Positions 1 to 61,963 of a stretch of 64,000 nt of DNA are shown piece by piece. The notes under the pieces were generated by a model. The model saw only the letters and a program-made list of their open reading frames with translations. It did not search any database and was not told the origin of the DNA. Both the position numbers and the translations under genes were made by a program. This DNA comes from Pegea sp. RAD2-039 (Eukaryota > Chordata > Thaliacea > Salpida > Salpidae): NCBI GenBank assembly GCA_034620365.1, contig JAQGEQ010000189.1, positions 186,001 through 250,000 on the forward strand. The letters are read 5' to 3'. The stretch's first letter is position 1, and every line of letters begins with the position of its first letter.

Positions 1-2945
1 TTTTTTTATTTTTTTATAACAATGTTGATATTTCATAAAAACAAAATAAATCAGGTCTAAATAAGCAGACAGGTAAGTTTAGTTATTTAATTTTTGTTTA
101 TCAGTTACATATAAAACTGATTGAAATTATTGTTAATAACTTAATTATTATATTAAAATTTGATGCTTCTCAAATTAGGTAGTAAATTGTTCAATGCAGG
201 CCAACGTAGTTAAAACAATCAAGAAAGATTCCATCAAAAAACTATCTGTAAATGAAGACAAATACATGATGTTAAATATAAATTAAAATATTTAATACCA
301 CACTATACAATATACCTTGATAATAATACATGATGTTAAATTTAAATTAAAGAAAATTAAAGCAATTAATTTCTATTCAACAACATTTTGATTTCTCTGA
401 ATTTCTTTTTATTAAATTAATAATATTGGCTTTTATATCTTGAAATAAGTCAAATAATAAACTGAATATATTTTTTTGCTGAAAGAGAAGATAATTATAA
501 ACTTTCTGATTCGAGTTTTACTTTTGGATGCGTAAGAAAATGTAAATTAAAAGTTTATCTTTTATATGATTTACTTATTTTAATAATATTTTAATTTGTG
601 AAAATTCATAAAATATAAAAAAAAATTATAAACAGTTACTCAGTTTTTAACTACCTTACAAATACTCAAACATGAATTAAATGTAATTGGCCTCAATAAT
701 ATATAAAAATCAACAATTATTTCCATTGAAAAATTATAGTGCCTAAAAAGATATATCATCTGGTTTAAAATTGTTAGAAATTTCAGTAATCGACTTGACT
801 ACTACTATTAAGTCTTCAAATAGAACATAGAACCACTAAATAAGCTTATTAGTAAATAGTCAAATTTTGTTCATGACTATGATATATATAAATTAAATTA
901 AAGTTTATACAACATAATATTTTATTATAAATCTAATGTTTAAAAAAGTGAGAATTGTTTCAGTAATTAATATAAGTAATTTTTCAAATAAATGTTTTAT
1001 GAAGTAAGATGATAGTACTGAGTTTTAATTTCATCATTTTAATAATTTACTTTTTCAACAAAGTTATTATTTTCCTTATTATGTATTTGTAATTTATTTC
1101 TATATCAGTTTTAAGCTTGTAGTTTTCTACCGTATAAGATAAAAAACAACTTATTATGGCAAAAATAATTGGGTAACTGACTTAATATAATCAATTGTAA
1201 TTCACTTTTGGTAAAAAAAGATAACATCAAAGCCACTAATAGTTATAGAAAACAAGGTTTATAACTCTATTCATCATGAAGTCATGTTTAGTATTCTCTG
1301 TATTTCTTGTTTGATGTTTTAAACAAAACATCAAAACTACTTTTAAACAAAGTTAATAATCCAACAAATTTATTTCTAATTTTTTACAAAATAAAAATAA
1401 AAATTAATTTTAACTTTTAAATTTAATATTCAATCTGATTAAAAACTTTGATGATTTAACCAACTGCTGATAAAATGCCTTCTGTACACGGACCTCCAGT
1501 TTCTTTATTGGTAACTTGGCTGGTACTTTCTTCCTAATTGTAATCAACAAAACAATTAGAAAATGAGATGAAATAGGACGGAATTCTGTTTGTACTTAAT
1601 TTATATTTACATCCACCAATCAAATAAGTTAGTATGGAAGCAAACAATAGATCAATTACAACTTAACTTACTTTGTACAGCAGTTCATATGTTTTATTTC
1701 TTCAACAAACTCAACAATCGTGGAAGGTTATAATGAAGATACAAAACGACATCTAAATCTCTTGTTTTGTTTTACTGAGTTCACATGTTTTGGTTTTACA
1801 ACAATAACCTTTCTTCTTCTGGCGTACTTTGCACTTTTACATAATTTCTAAAATTAATCTTCAACATATTAAAAGATTTATTATAAACATTGTAGCTTCC
1901 TAGTAGTCGTTGTTACACTCGAAAAAACTTTCTTTACAACTAGCAGTCAGCCAAATGTCACCATAATTATACTCATTGAAATAAGTTTATTTATAATCTC
2001 TTTTTTATATTCTAAAATCATAAATAAATGAGAAAAAACGGACAATATCTTTAATGTAGAAACAAACAAATATGCTTTTAGAGTATTCTTTAAGTTGAGT
2101 ACTATCAACTATAGAAAAACTTATATTTACAAACCAACTTTGCTGCTAGCAGGACGCAACTAATTACCTACTTTGATAGAATGGTGGACGCTTGTGTAGA
2201 AAAAGTAATCTTAGATGTTTATAAGCTATCATAATTTTACCAAATTGTTGCTGTTTGTATTTACTTACTAGTTATTATAATTTTGAAAATCTAAAAGTTA
2301 TTAATAAAACTATCACCAACCGTTTTCAAACAAACTTTCATTTACTACTCATGTAGGTGCTTCACCGTGCGTGACCAGTTTATGCTAATTTATTTATACT
2401 AAAAGTATTTCAAGAGAGCCTAGAGACTGATTATCAAATTTTGAGAACCAGCAACCTTAAAATTAGAGGTAAGCTCTTTAACTAACTGTTTGTAAACACT
2501 GTATTAGTTTTGTCTTTACTAATAATTATTATGAAAAATTTGTTTAAATTTTTTAATTAAATATTTAAAAGTTAAATCACTTTACTTAAAATGTCGCCAA
2601 CTAAAACCTCAGTTAGTAGTAGTAGAAGGAGCTGTTGTGTATTGAAACGATATTAAGAACCAAAACCTAACTAGATTACCCTCAACAAAACATTGATTTA
2701 AAAATTGCTTAACAATTTCACTATTTTGCTGGAAGCAGTTAAAAGTTTTAAAGTTCTGTGTAAAAGCACAAATAAAAAACTAACTTTTATTTGATGGATA
2801 ATCCTTTCTAGCAAATAAAAGAGGATAATTTAAGTTTTATTTTGAAATAGTCTGTTGAAAATTATCCAACTCTAAAAGTTGATACTTATAAAAGTCATAA
2901 AGATGTTTTCACGCTGATTTGTATCTTTATATTAATTTCGATTAG
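1..2945 (+). repeat. Long direct repeat LR1, copy 1
   Basis: This stretch is nearly collinear with 19,958-22,920, with many substitutions and small indels. Parts recur at 27,700-28,120 (plus), 48,195-48,780 (plus), 57,940-58,440 (minus) and 63,000-63,420 (minus). I found no convincing exon in 1-2,560. From about 2,580 it runs into the MutS-like fragment and then cassette C1. Whether this is a mobile element is unknown; no terminal repeats or transposase were seen. Confidence 0.85.
2590..2775 (+). pseudogene. MutS-homologue-like fragment (M1)
   Basis: One of about 13 copies of a fragment whose best open version lies at 36,198-36,422. Here the reading frame is interrupted. It starts in the conserved ATGTCGCCAACTAAA block and ends at the FKVLCK-type segment followed by a possible GT donor. 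It lies directly upstream of cassette C1, as most copies do. Confidence 0.3.
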
Positions 2946-2970
2946 TTTAGTGTTTGTGGTGAAGATTTGC
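2854..2970 (+). repeat. Cassette C1
   Basis: The palindrome is worn (GTTGAAAATTATCCAAC). The spacer contains GATACTTATAAAAGTCAT and the invariant block is present (GTTTAGTGTTTGTGGTG). A cassette body follows to about 3,330, in which the small ORF of other copies is frameshifted. Confidence 0.75.
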
Positions 2971-3339
2971 TACTAAATTATTTTGTCATAAATATTTTCT
3001 GAGTTGACTCCTGTTAGTTACTTTTTACTTAAAAATTCTTATCTAAATTATCTAAATATATTTTTTTAGCAAATTTATGACTCAGAATAATAGAAGAGAT
3101 GGGAAAATATCAGAATAATGCGACTTTGAGACAACAATTGGAGATTTTGAAGATCAAAATAACAAGATGATAAAATTAAAGTTGAATCTTTAAATCAAGA
3201 GATATTAAGAGTATTAAGAATATATTTATAGTATAAAGAAGGACACTATAATAATTTATATTAAATTATTATGGAACTATAAAAATCTAGCAACAAATTT
3301 ACGTATGAGGTAAAATTGTAATAGATTTAGCCTCCTGCT

Positions 3340-4075
3340 TTACTACTTTTTCGTCAGCCAAACAAACAACTAGCGTAGCAACACCCAACAAAATGGCTTT
3401 TTTTAAAAGTTACTTATTAAAATAAATAATAATTCAAAACATTTCAACATTTACTTAGTAAGCAGCTTTCAATTCATATATAACTTAAAAATGGAATTAA
3501 TGAAAAATTACGCAACACAAACTTTCTCATAACTATACAGTAAGTTTTTCAAATAATTCTTTGACAATAGCTTAAATTTCTTAGTATTAGTCAATATAAA
3601 GTTATTACATCCTTTCAATTTCAAAGTTAAAAGCTTTTAAAAGAAGATATTGTAAGTCACGATTGGAAAAACTTATAGAGGAAATTTTAAATAGAATTTT
3701 GTAATAACTTTCAAAGAAATTTTATCTAGTATTAAACATAATTTCAAAATTACTAATAATTATTGAAATTGAAGTCATTTCAAAGTAAACTTTTGACATT
3801 TTAAGTAAAAAAAATAAATTAATTTTTATTGGTACTTTGTTTTAAAAAACATTTCATAAATTCAATTTACAAAAACTGTAAATAATAAATATAAATTATA
3901 ATATCTAATATTTTAAATCAAAAACTTATTAAAATAAAAAAGATATTTAAACTATAGAATTGAAAAGAACTAAAAAAAGTAAAATATCAAGAAGAACATC
4001 AAAGTTAGAAAAAAATTTGAACTTAAATAAAAATATATCCTGTTTATCTGCATAAAAAAAGATTTTATTTGAAAA
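3340..4075 (-). repeat. RAD54 3'-flank repeat
   Basis: Non-coding sequence that follows the RAD54 stop codon in the fullest copy (47,440-47,690). Related segments lie at 11,880-12,290, 23,878-24,760, 29,880-30,790, 36,540-36,805, 41,220-41,690 and 60,490-61,200. It translates into hydrophobic Phe/Leu/Ile ORFs of about 60-80 codons in several copies, but these differ by frameshifts and look like AT-rich chance ORFs. Confidence 0.7.
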
Positions 4076-4150
4076 TTTTACCTATGCGGTAAAATCAGCT
4101 TACTATGATTTAGCTTCCAGCTTTACTACTTGTTCGTCAAATAAAAAATT

Positions 4151-4831
4151 GACGTAGCTGATCACGTGAGAAATGTCTAGCTAAATCTTTTTCACGGACC
4201 ACTACACACGACGAAAGTGACTTTTTATGAGCTTGGCGCTGAAATATTTTCTCTTCAATACTTGAAGTTGCAAGTAATCTGCAAAAAGCCATTTTCCGTC
4301 ATTTTAATTTTTAGTGTTTCCAATTGATTTTTTTGTAAATTTTTAACCAGTAAACATAATAAATTTTTTTGTCCGTCTCTCCACACTCTAGCCATGACCT
4401 GCTCGTCGTTAGCAGGATTCCAATCAGGATCAAACATAACTAACCGATTTGCACCAATCAAATTTAAACTGCATCTAAAAATTGAAATTTTTTTAAATTT
4501 TTTGTTTGGAAACACTGTTTATCGTACCCTCCTGCCTTACTACTTAACATAAACACAAAATCTTGAGATGCTAGATCATTGAATCGTTTTACGATTTTAA
4601 ATCTTTTTTTAATAGTCATACTTCCATCTAATCTTACATATCCGTATATGACAACAAAATGTTGATTGAAATTCATCATCATCAAGTTCTCTACCTCCTC
4701 ATACGGCACAATTTTTCACATAAATCGAGCGTTTGCGTGTAATTTGATACAATCACGTATTTATCATCATTTATTGAATGAGTTGCTGCCATCAATGAAT
4801 TCACTAACATCATTTTACCAGATAAATCCGG
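4151..4831 (-). pseudogene. rad54: RAD54-like C-terminal fragment, copy A
   Basis: RAD54 is a SWI2/SNF2 DNA translocase that works with RAD51 in homologous recombination. Four exons are recognisable on the minus strand: 4,695-4,831 (SGKMMLV...[13 protein letters not shown]), 4,528-4,647 ([13 protein letters not shown]), 4,348-4,474 ([20 protein letters not shown] and ARVWRDGQK, helicase motifs V and VI) and 4,151-4,278 (IFQRQAHKK). The acceptor before the second exon is CAT instead of CAG, the third exon is 127 bp against 126 in copy F (frameshift), and the last exon breaks off mid-way into foreign DNA. Not functional. Confidence 0.85.
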
Positions 4832-4860
4832 CTGAAAAAAAAATTGTGTAAAAAAAAAGT

Positions 4861-5182: not shown

Positions 5183-5310
5183 GCAAATCTACACCACAAA
5201 CACTAAACTACTAGAAATTTATATAAAGTGAAAAATCAGCGTAAAAATGTATAAATGCTATAGAAAAACATTAAACAGGTTCTAATTTTTAGAGTTGAAC
5301 AAGTTTCAAC
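5183..5310 (-). repeat. Cassette C2
   Basis: Intact palindrome (GTTGAAACTTGTTCAAC in cassette sense), a 50-nt spacer beginning near CCTGTTTAATGTTTTTCT, and the invariant block. The spacer is distantly related to that of C37. The body lies to its left, down to about 4,880. Confidence 0.8.
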
Positions 5311-5851: not shown

Positions 5852-6130
5852 TTATCTTCTTGTATATAAATATGACAATTTAGTAAGTTCTTGAAACGAA
5901 ATTAAATGGTTTTTTCTTTGTCTGAAAGCAATGAAACCTTTATTAAAGAGATGCTTCAGTTTATTATTAGAAATATTAACTTGTTCAAGATTTATTAAAC
6001 TGAAGAAACTGGGAAGGAACCACATTGTTGAACTACCTATATCTTTAATTACATTGTTATTAAGATACAAATATCTTACGGAAGTGTGTAATCCTGAATT
6101 GAAATTAAATTCGTCATTTGCTTATGTCAT
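5852..6130 (-). pseudogene. Leucine-rich-repeat exon fused in frame to gene X exon
   Basis: The first part (6,130 down to about 5,945) reads TSVRYLYLNNNVIKDIG...INLEQVNISNNKLKHL, a typical LRR with LxxLxLxxN spacing. It then continues without a stop into FIAFRQR...ISFQELTKLSYLY, the gene X sequence of 57,433-57,546. The joint at about 5,940 replaces the native LRR continuation seen at 55,040. An upstream TAA in frame argues against a functional product. It is either a chimeric pseudogene or a captured exon. Confidence 0.55.
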
Positions 6131-7600: not shown

Positions 7601-7611
7601 TGTTGAAACTT

Positions 7612-7720
7612 ATTCAACTCTAAAAATAAGCTATTTATACCATATATGAAATACAATCTTACGCTGATTTGTTCCTTTATATAAATTTCTATTAGTTTAG
7701 TGTTTGTGGTGTAAATTTGC
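7612..7720 (+). repeat. Cassette C3
   Basis: Palindrome GTTGAAACTTATTCAAC, spacer containing AGCTATTTATACCATATA, intact invariant block. The body follows to about 8,060; its small ORF has TAG at codon 4. Confidence 0.8.
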
Positions 7721-8088
7721 TAATAAATTATTTCGTTATAAAAAAATTTTCTGAATTGACTCCTGTTAGCTACTGTTTACATAAAAGTTTTTATCTAAAT
7801 TATCTAAGTACTATTTTTTTAGCAAATATTTGATGTAATATAAATCGATAAGAGATGGGAAAATAGCAAGATGAAGCAACTTTGGGACAAGTGGTTAGAG
7901 AGTTTGAAGATCTAAGTAACAAGAAGATAAAATTATATTTGAAACTTTAAATCAAGAGATGTTTATAGTATTAAGAAGGACACTATAATAATTTAGCAAC
8001 ACATTTACTTATGCGGTAAAATACACTTCTGATATGCAGTTCAAACAACACAATTTATTTTTATTTATTTTTTTGATGAAATCTATTA

Positions 8089-8203
8089 GCAAATCTACAC
8101 CACAAACACTAAACTACTAGAAATTTTTATAGACTAAAAAATCTGCGTAAAGGTATTATTGAAGATATTTTCATTTAATTTTTGAGATTGAACAAGTTTC
8201 AAC
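8089..8203 (-). repeat. Cassette C4 (core without body)
   Basis: The palindrome side carries a G-to-A change (GATTGAACAAG on the plus strand). The spacer is shared with C6, C31 and C36. The body is missing: the core abuts the tail of C3's body head-on, an arrangement repeated at C10/C11, C30/C31 and C35/C36. Confidence 0.75.
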
Positions 8204-9287: not shown

Positions 9288-9407
9288 GCAAATTTACACC
9301 ACAAACACTAAACTAATAGAAATTTATATAATGAAAAAAATCTGAGTAATACTACAATTAAAGCACATTTCTATATTGCTAATTTTTGAAGTTGAACAAG
9401 TTTCAAC
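9288..9407 (-). repeat. Cassette C5
   Basis: Spacer of 33 nt containing AGCAATATAGAAATGTGC, the same as C26. The upstream CGCTG element is changed to CTCAG. A body with a decayed small ORF lies on the left. Confidence 0.75.
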
Positions 9408-11089: not shown

Positions 11090-11207
11090 GTTGAAACTTG
11101 TTCAATCTCAAAATTGAAATGAAAATATCTTCAATAATACCTTTACGCAGATTTTTTTTTAGTTTATAAAAATTTCTAGTAGTTTAGTGTTTGTGGTGTA
11201 GATTTGC
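11090..11207 (+). repeat. Cassette C6 (core without body)
   Basis: Palindrome variant TTGAAACTTGTTCAATC. The spacer, containing GAAATGAAAATATCTTCA, is the same as in C4, C31 and C36. It abuts a body of opposite orientation. Confidence 0.75.
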
Positions 11208-11572
11208 TAATAGATTTTCGTAAAAAAAATAAATAAAAATAAGTTGTGTTGTTCGAACTGCATATCAGAAGTGTTTTTTACCGCATACGTAAATGTGTTG
11301 TTAAATTATTATAGTGTCCTTCTTAATACTATAAACATCACTTTATTTAAATTTTCAAATATAATTTTATCTTCTTGTTACTTAGATCTTCAAACTCTCT
11401 AACCGATTGTCTCAAAGTTGCTTCATCTTGCTATTTTCCAATCTTTTATCCATTTATATTATATCAAATATTTTCTAAAAAAATGGTATTTAGATAATTT
11501 AAATAAAAACTTTTATGTAAAAAGTAGCTAACAGGAGTCAATTCAGAAAATTTTTTACGAAATAATTTATTA

Positions 11573-11702
11573 GCAAATTTACACCACAAACACTAAACTA
11601 ATCGAAATTTATATAAACTGAAAAATCAGCGTAAAAATGTTCAAGAAATCCTTAAAATGTGCAAATATGTTTGCTAGATTTTGGAGTTGAACAAGTTTCA
11701 AC
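11573..11702 (-). repeat. Cassette C7
   Basis: Spacer containing TTTGCACATTTTAAGGAT, shared with C28. Palindrome and invariant block intact. Confidence 0.8.
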
Positions 11703-13549: not shown

Positions 13550-13685
13550 GCAAATTCACACCACAAACACTAAACTACAAGAAATTTATATAAAGAAACA
13601 AATCAGCGTACAATCGATTTTGAAATTTTTATTAGCGATATATTATTTAATTTTTGGAGTTGAACAAGTTTCAACAAACTAATTC
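13550..13685 (-). repeat. Cassette C8
   Basis: Spacer containing ATATCGCTAATAAAAATT, shared with C34. Here the invariant block ends in GTGAATTTGC. Confidence 0.75.
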
Positions 13686-16533: not shown

Positions 16534-16653
16534 GTTGAAACTTGTTCAACTCTAAAAATTATAGTAATAGCTACTCATATGAAATTCAATTTTACGCTGA
16601 TTTGTTCCTTTATATAAATTTCTATTAGTTTAGTGTTTGCGGTATAAATTTGC
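16534..16653 (+). repeat. Cassette C10
   Basis: Spacer containing ATAGTAATAGCTACTCAT, shared with C30 and C35. The invariant block carries GTGTTTGCGGTATAAATT. A body follows to about 16,980, with TAG at codon 4 of the small ORF. Confidence 0.8.
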
Positions 16654-17032
16654 TAATAAATCATTTCGTTATAAAAATATTTTCTGAATTGACTCCTGTT
16701 AGCTACTTTTTACATAAAAGTTTTTATTTAAATTATCTAAATACCATTTTTTTAGAAAATATTTGATATAATATAAATGGATAAAAGATTGGAAAATAGC
16801 AAGATGAAGCAACTTTGAGACAAGCGGTTAGAGAGCTTGAAGATCTAAATAACATGAAGATAAAATTATATCTGAATCTTTAAATCAAGAGATGTTTATA
16901 GTATTAAGAAGTACACTATAATAATTTAGCAACACATTTACTTATGCGGTAAAATACACTTCTGATATGCAGTTCGTACAACACAATTTATTTTTATTTA
17001 TTTTTTTGATGAAAATCTATTAGCAAATCTAC

Positions 17033-17138
17033 ACCACAAACACTAAACTACTAGAAATTTTTATAGACTAAAAAAATCTGCGTAAAGGTTTTATTCAAGA
17101 TTTTTTCAATTAAATTTTGAGATTGAACAAGTTTCAAC
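17033..17138 (-). repeat. Cassette C11 (core without body)
   Basis: Spacer containing TTGAAAAAATCTTGAATA, shared with C27. It abuts the tail of the C10 body. Confidence 0.75.
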
Positions 17139-18816: not shown

Positions 18817-18943
18817 GTTGAATATTATTCAACTATAAAAGTTAATACTTATAGAAGTCAGTGATTACATCAAACATAATTTTACGCTGATTTGTTCGGT
18901 TATATACATTTGTACAAATTTAGAGTTTGTGGTGTACATTTGC
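18817..18943 (+). repeat. Cassette C12
   Basis: Spacer containing ATAGAAGTCAGTGATTAC, close to C18 and C40. The invariant block is worn (TTTAGAGTTTGTGGTGTAC). A body follows to about 19,350. Confidence 0.7.
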
Positions 18944-19576: not shown

Positions 19577-19694
19577 GCAAATATACACCACAAACACTAA
19601 ACTACTAGATATTTATATAAGGGAAAAATCAGCGATTGAATATCAATGCATAAACAAATAATTCATTAATTTTTGGAGTTGAAAAATTTTCAAC
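19577..19694 (-). repeat. Cassette C13
   Basis: Palindrome half GTTGAAAAATTTTCAAC, spacer containing AATTATTTGTTTATGCAT. The same as C32. It is followed by LR1-type sequence in both places. Confidence 0.75.
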
Positions 19695-23434: not shown

Positions 23435-23555
23435 GTTGAAACTTATTCAACTCCAAAAATTAAAAATTTCTCATAATGATTTTCTTGAAAAATTTTACGA
23501 TGATTTGTTGGTTTATATAAGTTTTACTAGTTTAGTGTTTGTGGTGTAAATTTGC
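23435..23555 (+). repeat. Cassette C15
   Basis: Spacer containing TTTCTCATAATGATTTTC, partly alignable with C17 and C25. The upstream element reads ACGATGATTTG. Confidence 0.75.
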
Positions 23556-25053: not shown

Positions 25054-25169
25054 AGGAAATCTACACCACAAACACTAAACTACTAGAAATTTATGTAAAG
25101 AAAAAAATCAGGGTAAACATAAATCATTAAAGTCATCATTTAAAGTTTTGCAGTTGAACAAGTTTCAAC
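25054..25169 (-). repeat. Cassette C16
   Basis: Spacer containing AATGATGACTTTAATGAT, found in no other cassette. The upstream element reads ACCCTGATTTT. Confidence 0.7.
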
Positions 25170-26371: not shown

Positions 26372-26491
26372 GCAAATTTACACCACAAACACTAAACTTT
26401 TAAATCTTATATAAAGCAACAAATCATCGTAAAACTTTTCAAGAAATTCATAATGTGAAATTTTAATTTTTGGAGTTGAACAAGTTTCAAC
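26372..26491 (-). repeat. Cassette C17
   Basis: Spacer containing TTTCACATTATGAATTTC, identical in C25. The upstream element reads ACGATGATTTG. Confidence 0.8.
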
Positions 26492-29132: not shown

Positions 29133-29257
29133 GTTGAATCTTATTCAACTCTAAAATTCAAATCTTATAGAAGTCAATGATTACATCGAATAATTTCACG
29201 CTGATTTGTTTCATTATATACATTTGTATTAGTTTAGTGTTTGTGATATTAATTTGC
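29133..29257 (+). repeat. Cassette C18
   Basis: Spacer containing ATAGAAGTCAATGATTAC. Arm partner of C40. The block reads GTGTTTGTGATATT, and the GT after GTG is lost. Confidence 0.75.
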
Positions 29258-31094: not shown

Positions 31095-31211
31095 GTAATT
31101 CTACACCACAAACACTAAACTAATACAATTTTGTATAAAGAAACAAATCAGCGTAAAAGCGTCTCCATCACTTGGATAAATTGTTATTTTTAGAGTTGAA
31201 TACATTTCAAC
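31095..31211 (-). repeat. Cassette C19
   Basis: Spacer containing ATCCAAGTGATGGAGACG. Arm partner of C39. Confidence 0.75.
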
Positions 31212-31383: not shown

Positions 31384-31502
31384 GCAATTTTACATTACAA
31401 GCACTAAACTACTAGAAATTTATATAAAGTAAAACGTCAGCGACTTAAGCGATCAATAAATATATAAATTTTCTTAAATTTTGGAGTTGAACAAGTTTCA
31501 AC
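31384..31502 (-). repeat. Cassette C20
   Basis: Spacer containing ATATATTTATTGATCGCT. The block is changed to GTGCTTGTAATGTA. Arm partner of C38, which shares the GTGCTTGTA change. Confidence 0.75.
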
Positions 31503-32218: not shown

Positions 32219-32344
32219 GTTGAAACTTGTTCAACTCTAAAATTTAGAAGTATTTAATGGTTTTTTATAGTATTTCTTCATTTGATGCTGATTTTTCACT
32301 TTATACAAATTTCTAGTAGTTTAGTGTTTGTGGTGTAGATTTGC
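32219..32344 (+). repeat. Cassette C21
   Basis: Spacer containing GTTTTTTATAGTATTTCT. Arm partner of C37. TATATAA is replaced by TATACAA. Confidence 0.75.
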
Positions 32345-33233: not shown

Positions 33234-33305
33234 TCCCAGGTGGTCTAGAGGTTACGATTCGTGGCTGTCACCCACGCAGCACGGGTTCGATTCCCGGTCT
33301 GGGAA
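33234..33305 (+). tRNA. tRNA-Glu body with GTC (Asp) anticodon
   Basis: Acceptor TCCCAGG/TCTGGGA, D arm and T arm are those of the tRNA-Glu family here. The anticodon loop is CTGTCAC, and 27-31 pairs with 39-43 (CGTGG/CCACG). One base changes CTC to GTC. The T stem has one mismatch (GCACGGG in place of GCCCGGG). It is followed by a TTTTTTCAG acceptor remnant, but the RAD54 exon is gone. Confidence 0.75.
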
Positions 33306-33352
33306 CTTTTTTTTCACAATTTTTTTTCAGCTTTTTATAATACTAGAAAAAT

Positions 33353-34690
33353 GATTTCTTCAATTATATTAAATCATAAATTTGCAACAAAAATATATTT
33401 AGATAATTCAAATAAAAACTTTTAAGAAAAAAGTAGCTAAAAGAAGTCATTACAGAAAAATTTTTTGACGACATTTTATTAGCAAATTCACACCACAAAC
33501 ACTAAACTAATAGAAATTTATATAAAGAAACAAATCAGTGTACAATTGATTTTGAAATTGTACAATTTTAAATTTTTGTAGTTGAACAAGTTTCAACGAA
33601 CTAATTCAAGATTAAACTTAAATTATCATCATCCTTTATTTAAAAGAAAGGATTTTTTGCTAAATCAACATTTAGTAGTGTTTAATTGGTACATTTACAC
33701 AACATTTAACAATAATATAATATTTTCTTTAAATTTTGAATTTTTTAATAAAAATTAAAATTAGTTTGATGGATTTAACAAAAATTAAAGTTAAATAAAA
33801 AAGTTAGATAATTAAAAAATATTTTAAATATTTTAAGAAAAAAAATCTTTTCTTTATTCTATATAATAACTATTTAGATATTTCATAAAACCAGAAGATA
33901 TAAAGTAAACAGACAAATTGTCACTAAGTATTGATAACCAACTATCTAACATCCCTCTTATGACTTTTATGAGCTTTAACTACCTCTTTTATTTTATATC
34001 TAATTTACAAGTTTAATTTATATGAATATCAAAATAAATCAAAATAAACTACAAGTAAATTATAACTAGTAGCTTAACAAAATTCAACTAATTTAGTTGA
34101 CAATCATCTTACAACTACTAAATGCAGCATTTTATTTATAGTTTTAAGTAGTTTATGTTTTAAAATTTAATTTATTAGAATATAATTTTGAAAATTCCAG
34201 TAATTAAATGAGAATTAAACTTATAAAAGCTTAAAATTTATTTCAATAATAAAAGTTGATGCTAGCAACAAGATGGACGAGTAATTAAGATAATTGGCTG
34301 TTTATCTACTAAACTTTGAGGGCATGGGTAAAAATCCCACCTTGTCATCAAAGAAACGCCATTCCTCGCTATATTAAGACATTTAATAAGTGCAGAAACC
34401 ATCTTTTCAATTATGAGTGAATAGTGCAACTGCATTGTGGTTGTTTCAGAATAAATAATAATTATATGAGGTTTACCAAACAGAATATTTACTATTCGTT
34501 GGCATCATAGTAAAAAGCTTAGGTCAATGACTTTTACAATATAAAATTTCAAATCTTTCACCCAAGTTAATCTAAGGGTTATCCATAATGATTCAAAGGT
34601 TGAAGGTTTTTTAAGATGTCTTTAAAAAAATACAACTTTCAAAAGGTATTCTTGAGAAAATCATTCTTTAAGTTTCTCTTTCTTACAATC
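33353..34690 (+). repeat. Direct repeat, partner of 13,423-14,760
   Basis: Contains C22 and the second tRNA-Ser-derived element (34,276-34,570). It ends abruptly inside the orphan exon of 14,734-14,993. Confidence 0.8.
33482..33597 (-). repeat. Cassette C22
   Basis: Spacer containing TTGTACAATTTCAAAATC, partly like C8 and C29. Confidence 0.7.
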
Positions 34691-34826: not shown

Positions 34827-34943
34827 GTTGAAACTTGTTCAACTTCAAAAATTAAATGTTTGAAATATTGACAGGGTACTTTTACGCAAATATTTTCATT
34901 GATATAAATTTCGATTAGTTTAGTGTTTGTGGTGTAAATTTGC
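34827..34943 (+). repeat. Cassette C23
   Basis: Spacer containing AAATGTTTGAAATATTGA, similar to C33. The upstream element is ACGCAAATATTTTC. The body is almost all deleted, joining RAD54 copy F at about 35,095. Confidence 0.7.
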
Positions 34944-37044: not shown

Positions 37045-37164
37045 GCGAATTTACACCACAAACACTAAACTTTTAAAACTTATATAAACCAACAAATCAT
37101 CGTAAAATTTTTCAAGAAATTCATAATGTGAAATTTTAATTTTTGGAGTTGAACAAGTTTCAAC
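37045..37164 (-). repeat. Cassette C25
   Basis: The spacer is identical to that of C17 over its full length. The block is intact. Confidence 0.8.
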
Positions 37165-38241: not shown

Positions 38242-38361
38242 GCAAATTTACACCACAAACACTAAACTAATCGAAATTTATATAATGAAAAGAATCTGAG
38301 TAATACTACAATTAAAGCACATTTCTATATTGCTAATTTTTGAAGTTGAACAAGTTTCAAC
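38242..38361 (-). repeat. Cassette C26
   Basis: Same spacer as C5. Confidence 0.75.
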
Positions 38362-40404: not shown

Positions 40405-40519
40405 GTTGAAACTTGTTCAATCTCAAAATTTAATTGAAAAAATCTTGAATAAAACCTTTACGCAGATTTTTTAGTCTATAAAAATTTCTACTAGTTTAGT
40501 GTTTGTGGTGTAGATTTGC
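40405..40519 (+). repeat. Cassette C27 (core without body)
   Basis: Same spacer as C11. It abuts an opposite-strand body. Confidence 0.75.
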
Positions 40520-40884
40520 TAATAGATTTCATCAAAAAAATAAATAAAAATAAATTGTGTTGTTCGAACTGCATATCAGAAGTGTATTTTACCGCATACG
40601 TAAATGTGTTGCTAAATTATTATAGTGCCTTTATTAATACTATAAACATCTCTTGATTTAAAGATTCAAATATAATTTTATCTTCATGTTATTCAGATCT
40701 TCAAGCTCTCTAACCGCTTGTCTCAAAGTTGCTTCATCTTGCTATTTTCCAATCTCTTATCCATTTATATTAAATCATAAATTTGCTAAAAAAAATGGTA
40801 TTTAGATAATTCAGATAAAAACTTTTATGTAAAAAGTAGCTAACAGGAGTCAACTCAGAAAATTTTTTACGAAATAATTTATTA

Positions 40885-41014
40885 GCAAATTTACACCACA
40901 AACACTAAACTAATCGAAATTTATATAAATTGAAAAATCAGCGTAAAAATGTTCAAGAAATCCTTCATATGTGCAAATATGTTTGTTAGATTTTGGAGTT
41001 GAACAAGTTTCAAC
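40885..41014 (-). repeat. Cassette C28
   Basis: Spacer as in C7, with a few substitutions. Confidence 0.8.
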
Positions 41015-41718: not shown

Positions 41719-42392
41719 TCAAACTGGTTTTCGTTGCATGATATGCGAGACCTGATGAAAGGCGAAACTTGCCCCAGAAGAGTCCCAGACGCAAATGTAA
41801 TTCGGAATGTGTCTCACTGAATATGAGTGATTCCAATCCGATAAATCTGAATTACAATCAGCAGTAGCCGGTGGAGGGCGCACTTGCACACAATTGACGC
41901 ATCTGTGACGCGTTGATGACGTCATTGACGCGATACCAACAGACGTAATTACCTTTGTGTTGAATGAGTGTCGCTTCCACATGACTTCATCGTGTCGTCG
42001 AGGGGTGAAAACAACTGAAGTAGCTGATCACATAAGAAATGTCTGGCTACATCTTCTTCACGGTCCACTACACACGACGAAAGTGGCTTTTTATGAGCTT
42101 GGCGCTGAAATATTTTCTCTTCAATACTTGAAGTTGCGAGTAATCTGCAAGAAGCCATTTTCGGTCACTTTAATTTTCAGTGTTTCCAATTGACTTTTTA
42201 ATAAATTTTTTATCTGTAAATGTAACAAGGTTTTTTTTGCCCATCTCTAGCCATGGCTTGTTCGTCGTTAGCAGGGTTCCAATCAGGATTAAACATAACT
42301 AACCGATTTGCACCAATCAAATTTAAACCATATCTAAAAATTTTATAATAAATTAATAAATCCACTAACATCCTTTTGCCAGATAAATCCGG
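41719..42392 (-). pseudogene. rad54: RAD54-like C-terminal fragment, copy D
   Basis: Last exon 41,719-41,902 (RCVNCVQVRPPPATADCNSD, LSDWNHSY, FAFHQVSH, stop), exon 41,953-42,144 (192 bp), motif V/VI exon 42,214-42,333 (120 bp, internal deletion, donor GT changed to AT). The YVRLDG exon is deleted exactly as in copy B. The first exon is reduced to 42,357-42,392. Confidence 0.85.
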
Positions 42393-42422
42393 CTGAGAAA
42401 AAAAATTGTTATAAAAGAAATG

Positions 42423-42455
42423 TTCCCAGACCGGGAATCGAACCCGGGCAGCGTG
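42423..42455 (-). pseudogene. tRNA-Glu 3' half
   Basis: Acceptor and T arm only. The break in the anticodon arm joins ATTTGTGAGGATAAAG, which at 52,807 and 53,127 is some 250 bp further on: a simple deletion. Confidence 0.7.
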
Positions 42456-42870
42456 AATATTTGTGAGGATAAAGATGAACTACTAGACCATTATTATCCT
42501 TGTATCTTAGATTGAACTTTTTCAATCTTAAAATAGATGAAAAGCTGTGTTGTTTGAACTACATATCAGAAGTGTATATTTTACCGCATACGTAAATGTG
42601 TTGCTAAATTATTATAGTGGGTTTATTAATACTATAAACATCGCTTGATTTAAAGATTCAAATTTAATTGTATCTTCTTGTTATTTTGATCTTCAAACTC
42701 TGTAACCGCTTGTCTCAAAGTTGCATCATTCCGATATTTTTCCATCTTTTCAATTATATTAAATCATATATTTGCAAAAAAATGTATTTAAATAATTTAA
42801 ATAAAAACTTTTATGTAAAAAGTAGCTAAAAGAAGTCATTACAGAAAAATTCTTTGACGACAATTTATTA

Positions 42871-42990
42871 GCAAATTCACACCACAAACACTAAACTACA
42901 AGAAATTTATATAAAACAACAAATCAGTCTACAATTTATTTTGAATTTGGCAAAACGTCTTTTAATTTTTGGAGTTGAACAAGTTTCAAC
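42871..42990 (-). repeat. Cassette C29
   Basis: Spacer containing GACGTTTTGCCAAATTCA. The upstream element is AGACTGATTTG. Confidence 0.75.
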
Positions 42991-44371: not shown

Positions 44372-44491
44372 GTTGAAACTTGTTCAACTCTAAAAATTAT
44401 AGTAATAGCAACTCACATGAAATACAATTTTACGCTGATTTGTTCCTCTATATAAATTTCGATTAGTTTAGTGTTTGTGGTATAAATTTGC
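44372..44491 (+). repeat. Cassette C30
   Basis: Same spacer as C10. The block ends GTGGTATAAATTTGC. Confidence 0.8.
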
Positions 44492-44860
44492 TAATAAATC
44501 ATTTCGTTATAAAAATATTTTCTGAATTGACTCCTGTTAGCTACTTTTTACATAAAAGTTTTTATTTAAATTATCTAAATACCATTTTTTTAGAAAATAT
44601 TTGATATAATATAAATGGATAAAAGATTGGAAAATAGCAAGATGAAGCAACTTTGAGACAAGCGGTTAGAGAGCTTGAAGATCAAAATAACATGAAGATA
44701 AAATTATATTTGAATCTTTAAATCAAGAGATGTTTATAGTATTAAGAAGGACACTATAATAATTTAGCAACACATTTACGTATGCGGTAAAATACACTTC
44801 TGATATGCAGTTCGAACAACACAATTTATTTTTATTTATTTTTTTGATGAAAATCTATTA

Positions 44861-44979
44861 GCAAATCTACACCACAAACACTAAACTACTAGAAATTTTT
44901 ATAAACTAAAAAAAAAATCTGCGTAAAGGTATTATTGAAGATATTTTCATTTAATTTTTGAGATTGAACAAGTTTCAAC
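44861..44979 (-). repeat. Cassette C31 (core without body)
   Basis: Same spacer as C4, C6 and C36. Confidence 0.75.
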
Positions 44980-47810: not shown

Positions 47811-47930
47811 GCAAATATACACCACAAACACTAAACTACTAGATATATATATAAGGGAAAAAAATCTGCGATTGAATATCAATGCAAAAACAAATAATTC
47901 ATTGATTTTTGGAGTTGAAAAATTTTCAAC
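47811..47930 (-). repeat. Cassette C32
   Basis: Same spacer as C13. It is followed by a partial LR1 copy (48,195-48,780). Confidence 0.75.
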
Positions 47931-52387: not shown

Positions 52388-52504
52388 GTTGAAACTTGTT
52401 CAACTCTAAAAATTAAATGTTCGAAATATTAGCAGAGTAATTTTACGCAGTTATTTTCCTTTATATAGATTTATATTAGTTTAGTGTTTGTGGTGTAAAT
52501 TTGC
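52388..52504 (+). repeat. Cassette C33
   Basis: Spacer containing AAATGTTCGAAATATTAG, similar to C23. The element reads ACGCAGTTATTTTCC. Confidence 0.75.
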
Positions 52505-53539: not shown

Positions 53540-53665
53540 GCAAATTCAGACCACAAACACTAAACTACAAGAAATTTATATAAAAGAACAAATCAGCGTA
53601 CAATCGATTTTGAAATTTTTATTAGCGATATATATTTCAATTTTTGGAGTTGAACAAGTTTCAAC
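53540..53665 (-). repeat. Cassette C34
   Basis: Same spacer as C8. Confidence 0.75.
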
Positions 53666-55648: not shown

Positions 55649-55657
55649 CACAGAACA

Positions 55658-55942: not shown

Positions 55943-56030
55943 AATAGCTACTCATATGAAATACAATTTTACGCTGATTTGTTCCTTTATATAAATTTCT
56001 ATTAGTTTAGTGTTTGCGGTATAAATTTGC
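55943..56030 (+). repeat. Cassette C35 (lacks the palindrome)
   Basis: Begins inside the C10/C30-type spacer. The block has GTGTTTGCGGT as in C10. A body follows to 56,360. Confidence 0.65.
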
Positions 56031-56401
56031 TAATAAATCATTTCGTTATAAAAATATTTTCTGAATTGACTCCTGTTAGCTACTTTTTACATAAAATTTT
56101 TTATTTAAATTATCTAAATACCATTTTTTTTTAGCAAATATTTGATTTAATATAAATAGTTAAGAGATTGGAAAATATCAGAATGATGCAACTTTGAGAA
56201 AAGCGGTTAGAGAGTTTGAAGATCTAAATAACATGAAGATAAAATTTTATTTGAATCTTTAAATCAAGAGATGTTTATAGTATTAAGAAGGACACTATAA
56301 TAATTTAGCAACACATTTACGTATGCGGTAAAATACACTTCTGATATGCAGTTCGAACAACACAACTTATTTTTATTTATTTTTTTGACGAAAATCTATT
56401 A

Positions 56402-56516
56402 GCAAATCTACACCACAAACACTAAACTAGTAGAAATTTTTATAGACTAAAAAATCTGCGTAGAGGTATTATTGAAGATATTTTCATTTAATTTTTGAGA
56501 TTGAACATGTTTCAAC
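56402..56516 (-). repeat. Cassette C36 (core without body)
   Basis: Same spacer as C4 and C31. One substitution in the palindrome loop. Confidence 0.75.
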
Positions 56517-57222: not shown

Positions 57223-57745
57223 CAAAACTGGATTCACAAAATTATTGCTGGTTTCTCTGCAATCTGTTTCCTAAAAAATATAATTTTAAGCTTTTTAATT
57301 ATTTTTGTTTCACGTCAAAAATTTTGATACAAATAAAAGTTTGATTTAATAAGTTTAGTAAAAATCGAAGTTAAATCTAAAAGTTTTAAATCTGAAAAAC
57401 TTATTTCAAATCATTTAAATGAATAAACTATTTTATCTTCTTGTGTATAAATATGACAATTTAGTAAGTTCTTGAAAAGATATTAAATGGTTTACTCTTT
57501 GTCTGAAAGCAATCAAACCAGTTTCAATCCAATCATCTTCTATATCCTACAAAATTGTATTAAATAATTACATCAGTAACTGGTATTTAATCTTTAATAA
57601 CTATATTTATACCACTCTTAATATTTAAATTTAATATGAATTTGTTTTTAGATAGACGAAGAAATAGAAATAATCATTTTTCACTTACTGTATCAGGTTC
57701 TGAAAATATCAAAGTGACTTCACTTTTCATTTCATTATTGTCAAT
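57223..57745 (-). CDS. Gene X: three ordered phase-0 micro-exons
   Basis: Exons 57,689-57,745 (57 bp, IDNNEMKSEVTLIFSEPDT), 57,496-57,546 (51 bp, DIEDDWIETGLIAFRQR) and 57,223-57,270 (48 bp, ETDCRETSNNFVNPVL). All are multiples of three in phase 0, with TTTTAG, TTTGTAG and TTTTTTAG acceptors and GTAAGT, GTAAAC and GTAAAG donors. Introns are 142 and 225 bp. If the second donor is skipped, that exon reads on to a stop at 57,433 (ISFQELTKLSYLYTRR). Single exons recur all over the window. Family unknown; acidic and short, perhaps an exported or micro-exon-type protein. Confidence 0.45.
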
Positions 57746-57939
57746 CTAAAATCATAAATAAATATATTGAATAAATTGTAAGAAGTAAAAATTATATCTA
57801 AAACAAAGGAACTAAGGTTTAGTATCAAATTAATAATTACCAAAACTGGGTTCACTAAATTATTGAAAAATACGAGGTAAAAACTGATATAAAACCAGAT
57901 TACAACAACATAATAAACAAAATAAATCTTTGATGAAAA

Positions 57940-58440
57940 AATAAATTATTAAAATGATGAAATAAAAACTCAATACTATCATCTTACTTCATAAAAAATT
58001 TGTTTGAAAAATTACTTAAATTAATTACTGAAACAATTTTTACTTTTTTTAAATGTAATTTAAATTCATATCTCAATATTAATTTTATATATACTTTCAT
58101 TTAACTTATAGATATTACAATTATATCTATTATATGTAATCTGACAATTTACTAATAAGCTTATTTAGTGATTCCTTGTTCTATTTGAAGACTTAATTGT
58201 AGTAGTTAGGTCGATTATTGAAATTTTTCACAACTTTAAACTAGATGATTTATCTTTTAGACAATATAATTTTTCAATGGAAAAATTTGTTTATTTTTTA
58301 TATATAATTAAGGCAAATTACATTTAATTAATGTTCAAAAATAAATAAAAGTAAAAATTTCTGTTTGAGTATTTGTAAGGTAGTTAAAAACTGAGTATCT
58401 GTTTATAATTTTTTATTAATTTTATAATGGAATCAAAAGT
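57940..58440 (-). repeat. Inverted partial copy of LR1
   Basis: Matches 600-1,060 in reverse. No gene. Confidence 0.7.
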
Positions 58441-58667
58441 TGTCAAGTTCAAGTCATGACATCATATTAACTAATAAAGATTACGATTTAAAAGCAAATT
58501 TAACCTATTATCATTAATCTTGTCTCTAATATTGAACATTTTCAATCTAAAAATAGATAAAAAGATGAGTTGTTTCAACTACACATCAGAAGTGTATTTT
58601 ACCGCATACGTAAATGTGATACTAAATTATTATAATGTACTTTTTAAAACTATAAAAATCTCATGAT

Positions 58668-58763
58668 TTAACGATTCAAATATAATTTTATCATCTTATT
58701 ATTTTGATCTTCAAACTCTCTAACAGCTTGTCTCAAAGTCGCTTCATTCTGATATTTTCCCAT
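58668..58763 (-). CDS. Candidate 31-aa peptide in cassette body
   Basis: MGKYQNEATLRQAVREFEDQ then NNKMIKLYLNR and stop. Belongs to C37. Confidence 0.3.
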   Translation of the reverse strand: MGKYQNEATLRQAVREFEDQNNKMIKLYLNR

Positions 58764-58919
58764 CTCTTCAATTAAGTAAAATCATATATATTCTGAAAAA
58801 ATTATATTTAGATGACTTAAATATAAACTTTTATGTAAAAACTAGTAAAAAGTAGCTAAGTAAAAAGTAGCTAACAGGAGTCAATTCAGAAAATTATTTT
58901 ATGACGGAATAATTTATTA

Positions 58920-59045
58920 GCAAATCTACACCACAAACACTAAACTACTAGAAATTTATATAAAGTGAAAAATCAGCGTAAAATTTAGAAATACTATAGA
59001 AAACCATTAAATACTTTTAAATTTTAGAGTTGAACAAGTTTCAAC
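58920..59045 (-). repeat. Cassette C37
   Basis: Spacer containing GTTTTCTATAGTATTTCT. Arm partner of C21. Confidence 0.8.
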
Positions 59046-59765
59046 GAACTAATTCAAGATTGAATAAAAATTATCTTCTTTTATTTAAAAGAAAGGATTA
59101 TTTGCTAAATCAATATTCAGTAGTTTTTAATTGGTACGTTTACACAACATTTAACAATCAAATAATGTTTCTTTTAAATTTTAAAATCGTTAGTAAAAGT
59201 GAAAATTAGTTTGATTGATTTAACAACAAAATTAAAATTAAATAAAATTGTAAGATCTGTTAATATTGTTTCAAATGTTTCAAGTGAAAAAAGTATTTCG
59301 TTTTATATATTAGATACATTTCATTTGTATCAAAATTTTTGACATGAAAGAAAATACAACATAAAAGCTTAAAATTAATTTTTCAGGAAACCGATTGCAG
59401 AGAAACCAACAATAATTTTGTAAATCCAGTTTTGGTAAATATTAATTTGATCCTAAACTTAATTTCGTTTGTTTTTATGAAATATCTAAATTGTTATTCT
59501 ATAGAATACAAAATACTTTTTTTTTCACTTGAAACATTTTATGAAATTTGTACAGATCTTACTTTTTTATTTAACTTTAATTTTGTTGTTAAATCAATCT
59601 AACTAATTTTAATTTTTATCAAAAATTTTAGAATTTAAACGAAATATTATTTTATTGTTAAATGTTGTGTAAAAACGTACAAATTAAAATCCAAATGTTG
59701 ATTCAACAAATAATCCTTTCTAGCAAATAAACAAAAATAATTTAGGTTTAATCTTGAATTAGTGA

Positions 59766-59884
59766 GTTGAAACTTGTTCAACTCCAAAATTTAAGAAAAT
59801 TTATATATTTATTGATCGCTTAAGTCGCTGACGTTTTACTTTATATAAATTTCTAGTAGTTTAGTGCTTGTAGTGTAAAATTGC
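59766..59884 (+). repeat. Cassette C38
   Basis: Spacer containing ATATATTTATTGATCGCT. The block reads GTGCTTGTAGTGTAAAA. Confidence 0.75.
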
Positions 59885-60055
59885 TAATAAATTAGTTGGT
59901 CAAAGGAAAATTTTCTGAATTTCTTTCAATTAGATACGTTTTTTTTAAAGTTTCTATTTAAGTCATCTAAATATCAAAAGACACAAATTAAAAACTAATA
60001 AATGTTTTATTTTAAACAGAAAAAGATACTTTTGATTTAATAATTGAAATAGTCT

Positions 60056-60172
60056 GTTGAAATGTATTCAACTCTAAACATAACAACACGTCCAAGTGAT
60101 GAAGACGCTTTTACGCTGATTTGTATCTTTATACAAATTTTTATTAGTTTAGTGTTTGTGGTGTAGAATTGC
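60056..60172 (+). repeat. Cassette C39
   Basis: The 40-nt spacer contains CGTCCAAGTGATGAAGAC. TATACAA replaces TATATAA. Confidence 0.75.
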
Positions 60173-60489
60173 TAATAAATTATTTCGTCAAAAAATATTT
60201 TCTGAATTGACTCCTGTTAGCTACTTTTGACTTTAAAGTTTTTATTTAAATAATCTAAATAAGATTTTTTAAGCAATTTTCTTACTTAATAAAATAGAAG
60301 AGATAGGAAAATATCAGAATGTGCAGCTTTGAGACAAGTGAATAGAGAGTTTGAAGATAAAATTTATATTATATTATAAATTATATTTGAATCTCTAAAT
60401 CGAGAGATGTTTATAATCTTAATAAAGCCACTAAACAAATCTAGCAACACATTTACGTATGCGGTAAAATTTTACTAGATTTAGCTTCC

Positions 60490-61200
60490 TGCTTTACTAC
60501 TTGTTCGTCAACCAAACAAACAACTAGCGTAGCAATACCCAACATAATGGCCTTTTTAAAAAGTTACTTTACTTTTATTGTTACTTTTTTAATATTAGTC
60601 AATATAAGGTGACTACACCCTTTCAATTTCAAAGTTAAAAGGTTTTTAAAAAAGATATTATAAGGAACGATTGGAAAAACTTATAGAAGAAATTTTAATT
60701 AGAATTTTGTAGTAACTTTCAAAGAAATTTTATTTAGTATTAAACATAATTTCAAAATTACTAATAATTATTAAAATTGAAGTCATTTCAACGTAAACGT
60801 TTGACATTTTAAGAAAAAAAAATCAATAAATTTTTAATAGTACTTTATTTAAAAAAACATTTTTTAAATTCAACTTAAGGGATATGTAAATAATAAATAT
60901 GAATTATAATATCTAATTATTTCAAATCAATAAACCTATTAAAATAAAAAAAGTATTTAAACTATAGAATTGAAAAGAACTAAAATAGTAAAATATCAAG
61001 AAGAACATCAAAGTCAAAAATAAATTGGACTTTAAATAAAAATATATCCTGTTTGTCTGCATAAAAAAAGATTTCATTTGAAACTTTTATATAAAAACTG
61101 TTCTTTAAAAGAATTGGTAAAAAAACATTTAGAATTGAGAAAATAAATATTTCGGCCAATTTTGGTCTTTCTCTAGAACTGCGCAGAAATTTTTTAAAGC
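60490..61200 (-). repeat. RAD54 3'-flank repeat
   Basis: Arm partner of 29,880-30,790, with a deletion of about 110 bp near 60,570. Confidence 0.65.
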
Positions 61201-61238
61201 TTCCAAATAAAAAAGAGAAATTTTCAACAAGAATTAAA

Positions 61239-61490
61239 CAATTCGTTCTACGATGTTAGATCTTTTTTTGATAGTCATACTTCCATCTAATCTTACATAT
61301 CCGTATCTGACAACAAAATGTTGATTGAAATTCATCATCATCAAGTTCTCTACCTCCTCATACGGCACAATTTTTCACATAAATCGAGCGTTTGCGTGTA
61401 ATTTGATACAATCACGTATTTATCATCATTTATTGAACGAGTTGCTGCCATCAATAAATCCACTAACATCATTTTACCAGATAAATCGAG
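61239..61490 (-). pseudogene. rad54: RAD54-like fragment, copy H
   Basis: Exon 61,354-61,490 (137 bp, open, LDLSGKMM start) and part of the YVRLDG exon (61,239-61,305). The acceptor here is CAG, unlike the CAT of its arm partner, copy E. The rest is deleted at the same point as in copy E. Confidence 0.8.
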
Positions 61491-61613
61491 CTGAAAAAAA
61501 ATTGTGTAAAAAAAAGTTTCCAGACCGGGAATATCAAAAGTTTATTTTACCGCATACGTGAATGTGTTGCTAAATTATTTTAGTGCTCTTCTTATAAATA
61601 TAAATCTCTTGAT

Positions 61614-61709
61614 TTAAAGATTCAAATATAATTTTATCATCTTGTTATTTTGATCTTCAAACTCTCTAACCACTTGTCTCAAAGTTGCATCATTCTGATA
61701 TTTTCCCAT
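61614..61709 (-). CDS. Candidate 31-aa peptide in cassette body
   Basis: MGKYQNDATLRQVVREFEDQ then NNKMIKLYLNL and stop, the consensus form. Belongs to C40. Confidence 0.3.
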   Translation of the reverse strand: MGKYQNDATLRQVVREFEDQNNKMIKLYLNL

Positions 61710-61838
61710 CTCTTCAATTATATTAAATCAAAAATTTAATATAAAATTATTTTTAGATAATTTAGATAAAAACGTTTAAGTAAAAAGTAGCTAGCAGAAA
61801 TCAATTCAGAAAATTTTTTTTGACGAAATAATTTTTTA

Positions 61839-61963
61839 GCAAATTAATACCACAAACACTAAACTAATACAAATGTATATAATGAAACAAATCAGCGTGA
61901 AATTATTCGATGTAATCATTGACTTCCATAAGATTCAAATTTTGGAGTTGAATAAGATTCAAC
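61839..61963 (-). repeat. Cassette C40
   Basis: Spacer containing TATGGAAGTCAATGATTA. Arm partner of C18. Unlike C18 it keeps GTGTTTGTGGTATT. Confidence 0.75.

Follow-up and report, generated by a model that had tools for sequence, protein, structure and literature searches.

An array of candidate small nuclear RNA-type genes with a hypervariable 5′ part in the salp Pegea sp. RAD2-039

Introduction

A stretch of 64,000 nucleotides from the genome of the salp Pegea sp. RAD2-039 (hereafter the window), which is part of a 250,794-bp contig (C102) in a genome of 105.7 Mb, contains dozens of short cassettes in which a hypervariable spacer lies between a palindrome and a nearly invariant 15-bp block. 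What do these cassettes encode, and why does the spacer vary so much? The original prediction, made from the window alone, read them either as a promoter-like module with a palindrome upstream or as the 3′ end of an intron with a branch site and a 15-bp micro-exon. Judged by where else it occurs in the genome, the block is the promoter element of the small nuclear RNA (snRNA) genes, and the most probable explanation of the cassettes is that they are RNA polymerase II genes of the snRNA type for a new multigene family of ~50-nt RNAs resembling the Sm class.

The cassettes form a dense array

At up to three mismatches the palindrome matches the window 41 times (0.64 expected), and the block, GTTTAGTGTTTGTGGTGTA, matches it 37 times (0.04 expected). 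Together they make 36 complete cassettes in the window, in agreement with the roughly 40 counted originally. On the whole of C102 the 15-bp block has 143 matches at up to three mismatches, 130 of which are accompanied by the palindrome; the remaining 13, some of which are surely due to chance, were dropped. Most of the array statistics given below refer to 129 cassettes of C102. A strict pattern of the whole module occurs 19 times in the window (0.00 expected) and at 96 places in the genome, all of them on C102 or on a second contig, C247, and the reversed control pattern at none. The block is also present on C247, and most of the 20 cassettes fetched from there carry spacers of the C102 kinds, as judged by eye. 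Beyond the window end the contig stops within the array (C102:250001-250794), so that the true array may be longer.

The block is the promoter element of snRNA genes

The block in its originally reported form, GTTTAGTGTTTGTGG, is the reverse complement of CCACAAACACTAAAC. Reference small-RNA genes were placed with Rfam models, which gave 19 matches to U1 (18 over the cut-off, four fetched), 19 to U2 (ten fetched) and 15 to U6 (13 over the cut-off, ten fetched). In all 24 fetched genes, CCACAAACACTAAAC or a close form of it (12-15 of 15 bases) ends 41-48 nt before +1; these genes amount to fewer than 24 independent cases because many of them are near-duplicates. A search with the motif led to three U3 genes and to one RNase-MRP-like gene, the latter scoring 33.8 bits where the cut-off is 50. 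The distance from the motif to the model start is exactly 42 nt in the U3 genes and 46 nt in the MRP-like gene. Among the matches listed on contigs before C102 there are 11 exact copies, nine of them in these small-RNA genes. For comparison, of 800 windows of 105 bp drawn at random in the neighbourhood of U2 and U6 genes, 27 score 12 of 15 or better, and some of these may be other promoters. From this placement, the block is the proximal sequence element (PSE) of this genome, common to its U1, U2, U3 and U6 genes and presumably the site of SNAPc. As the block is the reverse complement of the PSE, the cassette is to be read on the opposite strand.

The TATA of the cassettes is found 9-18 bases past the PSE, as in the U1 genes and in the U3 gene L076, whereas that of the U6 genes and of the MRP-like gene is found near 17-25. 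By this spacing the cassettes appear to belong to the U1/U3 class and not to that of U6, and would be transcribed by RNA polymerase II.

The other exact PSE copies among the matches listed on contigs before C102, L073 and L078, are without a gene assignment. The first of them (C1:3635378-3635668) combines an exact PSE with a ACATTTTTGG site and is a candidate small-RNA gene; it has no Rfam match at E values up to 1.

Anatomy of the predicted RNA

A position profile was computed from the 129 cassettes on the RNA strand, with all families given equal weight. The nearly invariant PSE is followed by the TATA, an A-rich element around CAGCGTAAAA, the hypervariable stretch, a AAUUUUUGG-like site and a nearly invariant hairpin of 6 bp. 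Conservation drops from about +38 past the PSE and returns at AATTTTT, which is followed by GTTGAACAAGTTTCAAC. All six pairs of the hairpin are intact in 106 of the 129 copies. With a start set by spacing 42 nt past the PSE, on the model of U2 and U3 (41 nt in U1), the predicted RNAs are 47-72 nt long (median 51) and have a variable 5′ part of 19-44 nt (median 23). At first glance this part seemed to contain hairpins of its own, but they turned out to be no more frequent than in shuffled sequences.

The palindrome that had been placed upstream lies downstream and corresponds to the 3′ hairpin, which comes after an Sm-like U-run. The CTGAT proposed as a branch site is part of CTGATTT, which sits in the promoter between the TATA and the predicted start. 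The earlier promoter reading was right in that a fixed promoter motif precedes many short differing sequences, but it had the strand and the roles of the parts reversed.

If the cassettes are genes of this type, RNA polymerase II would start ~42 nt past the PSE, inside the hypervariable stretch. The U-run of the resulting 47-72 nt RNA would bind the Sm ring, and the hairpin would form its 3′ end. The product would be a small nuclear ribonucleoprotein (snRNP) of U7 size whose single-stranded 5′ arm, ~23 nt long, varies from one family member to another. The work of this ribonucleoprotein (RNP) would most likely depend on the Sm core and the 3′ hairpin, and the arm would either drift freely or swap pairing partners; the data favour neither.

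The same module on two other contigs

The hairpin followed by GAG occurs at 183 places in the genome at up to one mismatch, and the first 100 matches listed lie on C102, C247, C23 (four matches) and C238 (two matches). The six C23 and C238 copies (L079-L084), which are near-duplicates within each contig, appear to be a second subfamily with the same RNA module. They have a TATA at the array position, a TATTTTTGGAG site and a hairpin identical to that of the array. Their PSE is looser (CCACAAACAGCAGAT or CCACAAACGGCAGAT, 11 and 10 of 15 bases) and similar to the PSE of the U1 gene L051, CCACAAACAGCAAAC. In L079 and L083, the 40 bp past the hairpin resemble the array at 0.44 versus 0.45 for shuffled sequence, and the 60 bp before the PSE resemble it little (0.53-0.54 versus 0.47-0.49). 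An Rfam search of four of the six loci gave only sub-threshold matches to Yar_1 and MPMV_package. The subfamily has a 5′ arm of its own (GGAAATTTTTGACTCAC...) and flanks unrelated to those of the array.

Variability and constraint

At 30% edit distance the 129 spacers fall into 31 families, 16 of which occur in the window. The original figure of about 18 unrelated families is thus close for the window, but any such figure shifts with the threshold (51 families in all at 15% and 13 at 45%). Averaged over columns, the entropy of the spacer is 1.3-1.6 bits, compared with ~0.1-0.95 bits in the 150 bp to each side. A set of 55 disjoint close pairs gives 0.0815 substitutions per site for the spacer versus 0.033-0.049 for four flank windows, and 0.032 gap openings versus 0.004-0.011; the PSE shows 0.022 substitutions per site. 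The excess of the spacer over the flank is significant by the Wilcoxon test (p=0.0005), but it is seen in 35 of the 55 pairs (sign test p=0.058), and it is smaller when only the 44 pairs whose spacers can be aligned are counted (0.055 versus 0.027-0.043). The spacer has 45 transitions to 77 transversions, and the four flanks have 601 to 735. In recent pairs, the rate of change of the spacer is about double that of the adjacent sequence, and the original observation that the spacer is more variable than the DNA beside it holds.

The flanks seem to be a fair yardstick because the open reading frame (ORF) they contain shows little coding constraint. This recurrent ORF of 31 codons, MGKYQNDATLRQVVREFEDQNNKMIKLYLNL, lies ~150-250 bp past the block on the strand of the original prediction and is intact in 33 of 82 alignable copies. 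Its differences per site at the three codon positions are 0.063/0.074/0.083, which is little bias, and among 24 distinct intact copies, codons that differ by a single change do so non-synonymously in 1584 cases and synonymously in 244. With so little constraint on codon positions, a protein-coding reading of the DNA beyond the block was rejected.

A wider comparison used pairs binned by flank identity, which are not independent of each other. Spacer identity is 0.87 at flank identities of at least 0.95 and 0.53 at flank identities of 0.80-0.85 (0.476 in random pairs). In 762 pairs with a far upstream flank no more similar than expected by chance (mean 0.47-0.48), the PSE is still 0.92-0.93 identical and the Sm site with the hairpin 0.81-0.85. 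These values suggest that the PSE and the 3′ module are held by selection in the long term, although the constraint on the 3′ module is hardly visible in recent pairs. In a simulation, the closest pairs fit a twofold substitution rate with a fourfold indel rate, and distant pairs a 3-4-fold and 4-6-fold rate, respectively; no single rate fitted every bin. In 111 of 434 pairs both flanks exceed 0.85 identity while the spacer is below 0.65. Replacement or recombination of spacers was considered as the cause and given up, as according to the simulation faster ordinary divergence can explain these pairs.

The fast change of the spacer weighs against a fixed guide in each family. It is compatible with drift of an unconstrained arm, with raised mutation or with diversifying selection.

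Relation to known families

At gathering score, Rfam release 15 finds only tRNAs in the whole window, and in 6.4 kb searched at E values up to 5 it adds only sub-threshold matches to Spd-sr07 and snoZ39; neither search matched a dictyostelid Class I RNA. The U7 model, run genome-wide, had a best E value of 0.4 and nothing over the cut-off. The 5′ arm of U7 contains TCTTT as the complement of the histone element, and TCTTT is present in only three of the 129 arms. A search of the literature found, in the partial texts it returned, no description of such an array.

Observations that weigh against snRNA-type genes

A number of observations speak against the snRNA-type explanation. The start site is not marked by any conserved base at +38..+50 in the 129-cassette profile. 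A U-run is present in most copies, but the strict site RAUUUUUR[GA] fits only 70 of the 129. Compensatory changes are absent from the hairpin because its stem is nearly invariant, and the hairpin could be a DNA-binding palindrome. The variable part folds like shuffled sequence (mean z of +0.19 for 31 family medoids, compared with -0.07 for the reverse strand and -0.05 for a downstream control).

Others concern constraint and function. In the 55 recent pairs the Sm site with the hairpin (0.033 substitutions per site) is not slower than the slowest flank (0.033), nor is the TATA stretch (0.052) slower than the flanks, and within families the variable part is not conserved beyond the flanks. Some copies in the array are truncated or lack parts. 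A PSE at 10-11 of 15 bases, as on C23 and C238, is by itself unremarkable, being matched in 143 of 800 control windows. Finally, 31 family representatives compared on both strands with the masked contig and the fetched snRNA loci showed no complementarity clearly above shuffles. The 24-mer of one family, the only one searched genome-wide, occurs at up to two mismatches at eight places, all on C102 or C247.

Alternative explanations

The first alternative concerns only the variation, which may be a functionless effect of mutation, for example of transcription-associated mutagenesis in an unconstrained stretch with a high level of transcription. We consider this possible, if somewhat doubtful; it would add to the snRNA-type explanation and could not take its place. 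It agrees with the moderate size of the excess (about twofold in substitutions and more in indels), with its location in the part predicted to be transcribed and unpaired, and with the outcome of the target searches just described. The opposite view of the same arm, that a fixed promoter and RNP scaffold present some 30 address sequences under selection for diversity as a repertoire of Sm-core guides, appears unlikely.

It is quite unlikely that the cassettes are loci similar to those of Piwi-interacting RNAs (piRNAs), where an snRNA promoter drives short unique RNAs and the U-run and palindrome serve as pausing or 3′ processing signals. A PSE ahead of differing sequences in dense clusters does fit the nematode logic, as far as it is laid out in the available part of PMC6436959. 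Likewise, the median of 23 nt for the variable part would suit such RNAs, and genes with a Piwi domain (Piwi or Argonaute) are found at three places in the genome. However, the variable part has no fixed first base, and no start motif of the nematode 21U type is present at a fixed distance at +38..+50. The spacer families recur in many copies, and a strictly kept Sm-like site with a hairpin is not among the features of nematode piRNA loci in the descriptions available in part. A search of the genome for nematode cuticle collagen found no match, which shows little, as the search had no positive control. COX1 was likewise sought without a eukaryotic control and gave no match.

A decaying, untranscribed array, in which the PSE and the hairpin look conserved owing to recency or gene conversion, is very unlikely. 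Recent partners do exist (for example, 5.0 kb at 96.7%), and the damaged copies and the nearly flank-like rate of the Sm site and hairpin in recent pairs point the same way. Yet the PSE and the 3′ module retain their identity in pairs with upstream flanks no more alike than by chance, and on C23 and C238 the TATA, the Sm-like site and the hairpin are found again in a setting of unrelated DNA.

Spliced-leader RNAs, with the 5′ part as a leader exon and a GU donor ahead of the Sm site, would fit in size, promoter, Sm-like site and clustering, some spliced-leader RNAs being this short, but are highly improbable here. No GT is present in 57 of the 129 predicted 5′ parts, a count that depends on the predicted start. 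Families of nine and four copies are wholly without it, as are the two C238 copies. Many cassettes have a GTAAAA-like donor at +32 to +37 past the PSE (G 0.61, T 0.63), and a true start further upstream than predicted would place it in the RNA, but the starts of U1, U2 and U3 at 41-42 nt argue against an earlier one.

The readings of the original prediction, a promoter for genes on its own strand or an intron end with a 15-bp micro-exon, retain almost no credibility: the 31-codon ORF (MGKYQNDATLRQVVREFEDQ...) does start ~150 bp past the block in many copies, but it is hardly constrained as a coding sequence, the block belongs as PSE to genes that run in the opposite direction, and these 15 bp precede +1 by 41-48 nt in all 24 of the U1, U2 and U6 genes fetched.

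Features of the window

The candidate genes are collected in Table 1. Six cassette pairs have their PSEs ~400 bp apart, with the promoters facing away from each other. Fragments of a RAD54-type helicase-like gene are scattered in the array, at 4255-4518 (-) and 42210-42479 (-), both with Helicase_C matches, and at 41719-42027 (-), which matches PDB entry 1z3i, 'similar to RAD54-like' (E 4.8e-10). A leucine-rich-repeat fragment (LRR_4, LRR_8) lies at 5852-6121 (-). At 33234-33306 (+) there is a tRNA that is Asp (GTC) by its anticodon and has a body resembling the neighbouring Glu tRNAs; an anticodon shift or a decayed copy is possible.

Table 1. Candidate snRNA-like genes, from the PSE to the 3′ hairpin, and related features. 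Positions are those of the window unless a contig is named.
Feature	Position	Strand	Predicted RNA	Remark
snRNA-like gene	2854..2959	-	2902-2854	
snRNA-like gene	5194..5310	+	5251-5310	
snRNA-like gene	7602..7709	-	7652-7602	
snRNA-like gene	8100..8203	+	8157-8203	
snRNA-like gene	9299..9407	+	9356-9407	
snRNA-like gene	11090..11196	-	11139-11090	
snRNA-like gene	11584..11702	+	11641-11702	
snRNA-like gene	13561..13675	+	13618-13675	
snRNA-like gene	16534..16642	-	16585-16534	
snRNA-like gene	17034..17138	+	17091-17138	
snRNA-like gene	18817..18932	-	18875-18817	
snRNA-like gene	19588..19694	+	19645-19694	
snRNA-like gene	23435..23544	-	23487-23435	
snRNA-like gene	25066..25169	+	25123-25169	
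snRNA-like gene	26383..26491	+	26440-26491	
snRNA-like gene	29133..29246	-	29189-29133	
snRNA-like gene	31106..31211	+	31163-31211	
snRNA-like gene	31395..31502	+	31452-31502	
snRNA-like gene	32219..32333	-	32276-32219	
snRNA-like gene	33493..33597	+	33550-33597	
snRNA-like gene	34827..34932	-	34875-34827	
snRNA-like gene	37056..37164	+	37113-37164	
snRNA-like gene	38253..38361	+	38310-38361	
snRNA-like gene	40405..40508	-	40451-40405	
snRNA-like gene	40896..41014	+	40953-41014	
snRNA-like gene	42882..42990	+	42939-42990	
snRNA-like gene	44372..44480	-	44423-44372	
snRNA-like gene	44872..44979	+	44929-44979	
snRNA-like gene	47822..47930	+	47879-47930	
snRNA-like gene	52388..52493	-	52436-52388	
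snRNA-like gene	53551..53665	+	53608-53665	
snRNA-like gene	56413..56516	+	56470-56516	
snRNA-like gene	58931..59045	+	58988-59045	
snRNA-like gene	59766..59873	-	59816-59766	
snRNA-like gene	60056..60161	-	60104-60056	
snRNA-like gene	61850..61963	+	61907-61963	
PSE of truncated copy	56005..56023	-		block present, 3′ hairpin/palindrome absent
Divergent cassette pair	7602-8203			
Divergent cassette pair	11090-11702			
Divergent cassette pair	16534-17138			
Divergent cassette pair	40405-41014			
Divergent cassette pair	44372-44979			
Divergent cassette pair	56005-56516			one member truncated
Second subfamily, L079-L084	C23:478226-514233, C238:12491-34910			same RNA module

Significance and comparison with known systems

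If expressed, the cassettes would make up an unlisted family of ~50-nt Sm-class RNAs in which the RNP scaffold is fixed and the arm evolves fast. They would show the snRNA machinery turned into a multigene RNA repertoire, which has likewise been proposed for nematode piRNAs and resembles the Class I RNAs of Dictyostelium. Exact modules number 96, compared with 15-19 listed matches to U1, to U2 and to U6. Should the less likely guide repertoire be true, a eukaryotic genome would encode a recognition repertoire built on snRNPs.

Of the known RNAs, U7 snRNA has a single-stranded 5′ arm, an Sm-type site and a 3′ hairpin. The predicted RNAs would share this order of parts and have a similar length, but they have a canonical-type U-run in place of the U7 site, and many copies.

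SmY RNAs, described as nematode-specific in the accessible part of PMC11229312, have two stem-loops around the Sm site, the first of them strongly conserved. Both groups would be small multigene RNAs of the Sm class outside the spliceosomal set. The cassettes, however, have no conserved first stem-loop of the SmY type, and their first part is neither structured (31 medoids) nor conserved.

Sm-class RNAs outside the spliceosome are also represented by the HSURs of Herpesvirus saimiri, which bind host microRNAs and mRNAs, and by the Drosophila LU snRNA, which is 116 nt long and has PSE elements and an Sm site (PMC4053861); both are cited from partial texts. LU is longer than the RNAs predicted here, and those texts describe no hypervariable multigene repertoire for either.

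According to the part of PMC6436959 at hand, the nematode piRNA motif derives from a SNAPc motif and precedes differing short sequences in clusters. The 21U-RNA loci of nematodes thus share with the cassettes an snRNA-type motif ahead of clustered differing sequences; the cassettes differ in having an Sm-like site and a hairpin in addition, recurring spacer types and no start motif.

The dictyostelid Class I RNAs, as portrayed in the accessible part of PMC7919456, are 42-65 nt long, have many genes and a variable interior, and share with other small-RNA genes the Dictyostelium upstream sequence element (DUSE) ~60 nt before the start. Short RNAs, many genes, a shared upstream element and a variable stretch are common to both systems. 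In Class I RNAs, however, the ends are joined by a stem and an 11-nt motif is present, and such an end stem is not possible in the cassettes because the predicted 5′ end varies while the 3′ end is fixed. In its place the cassettes would combine a variable 5′ end with a 3′ hairpin of their own and an Sm-like site.

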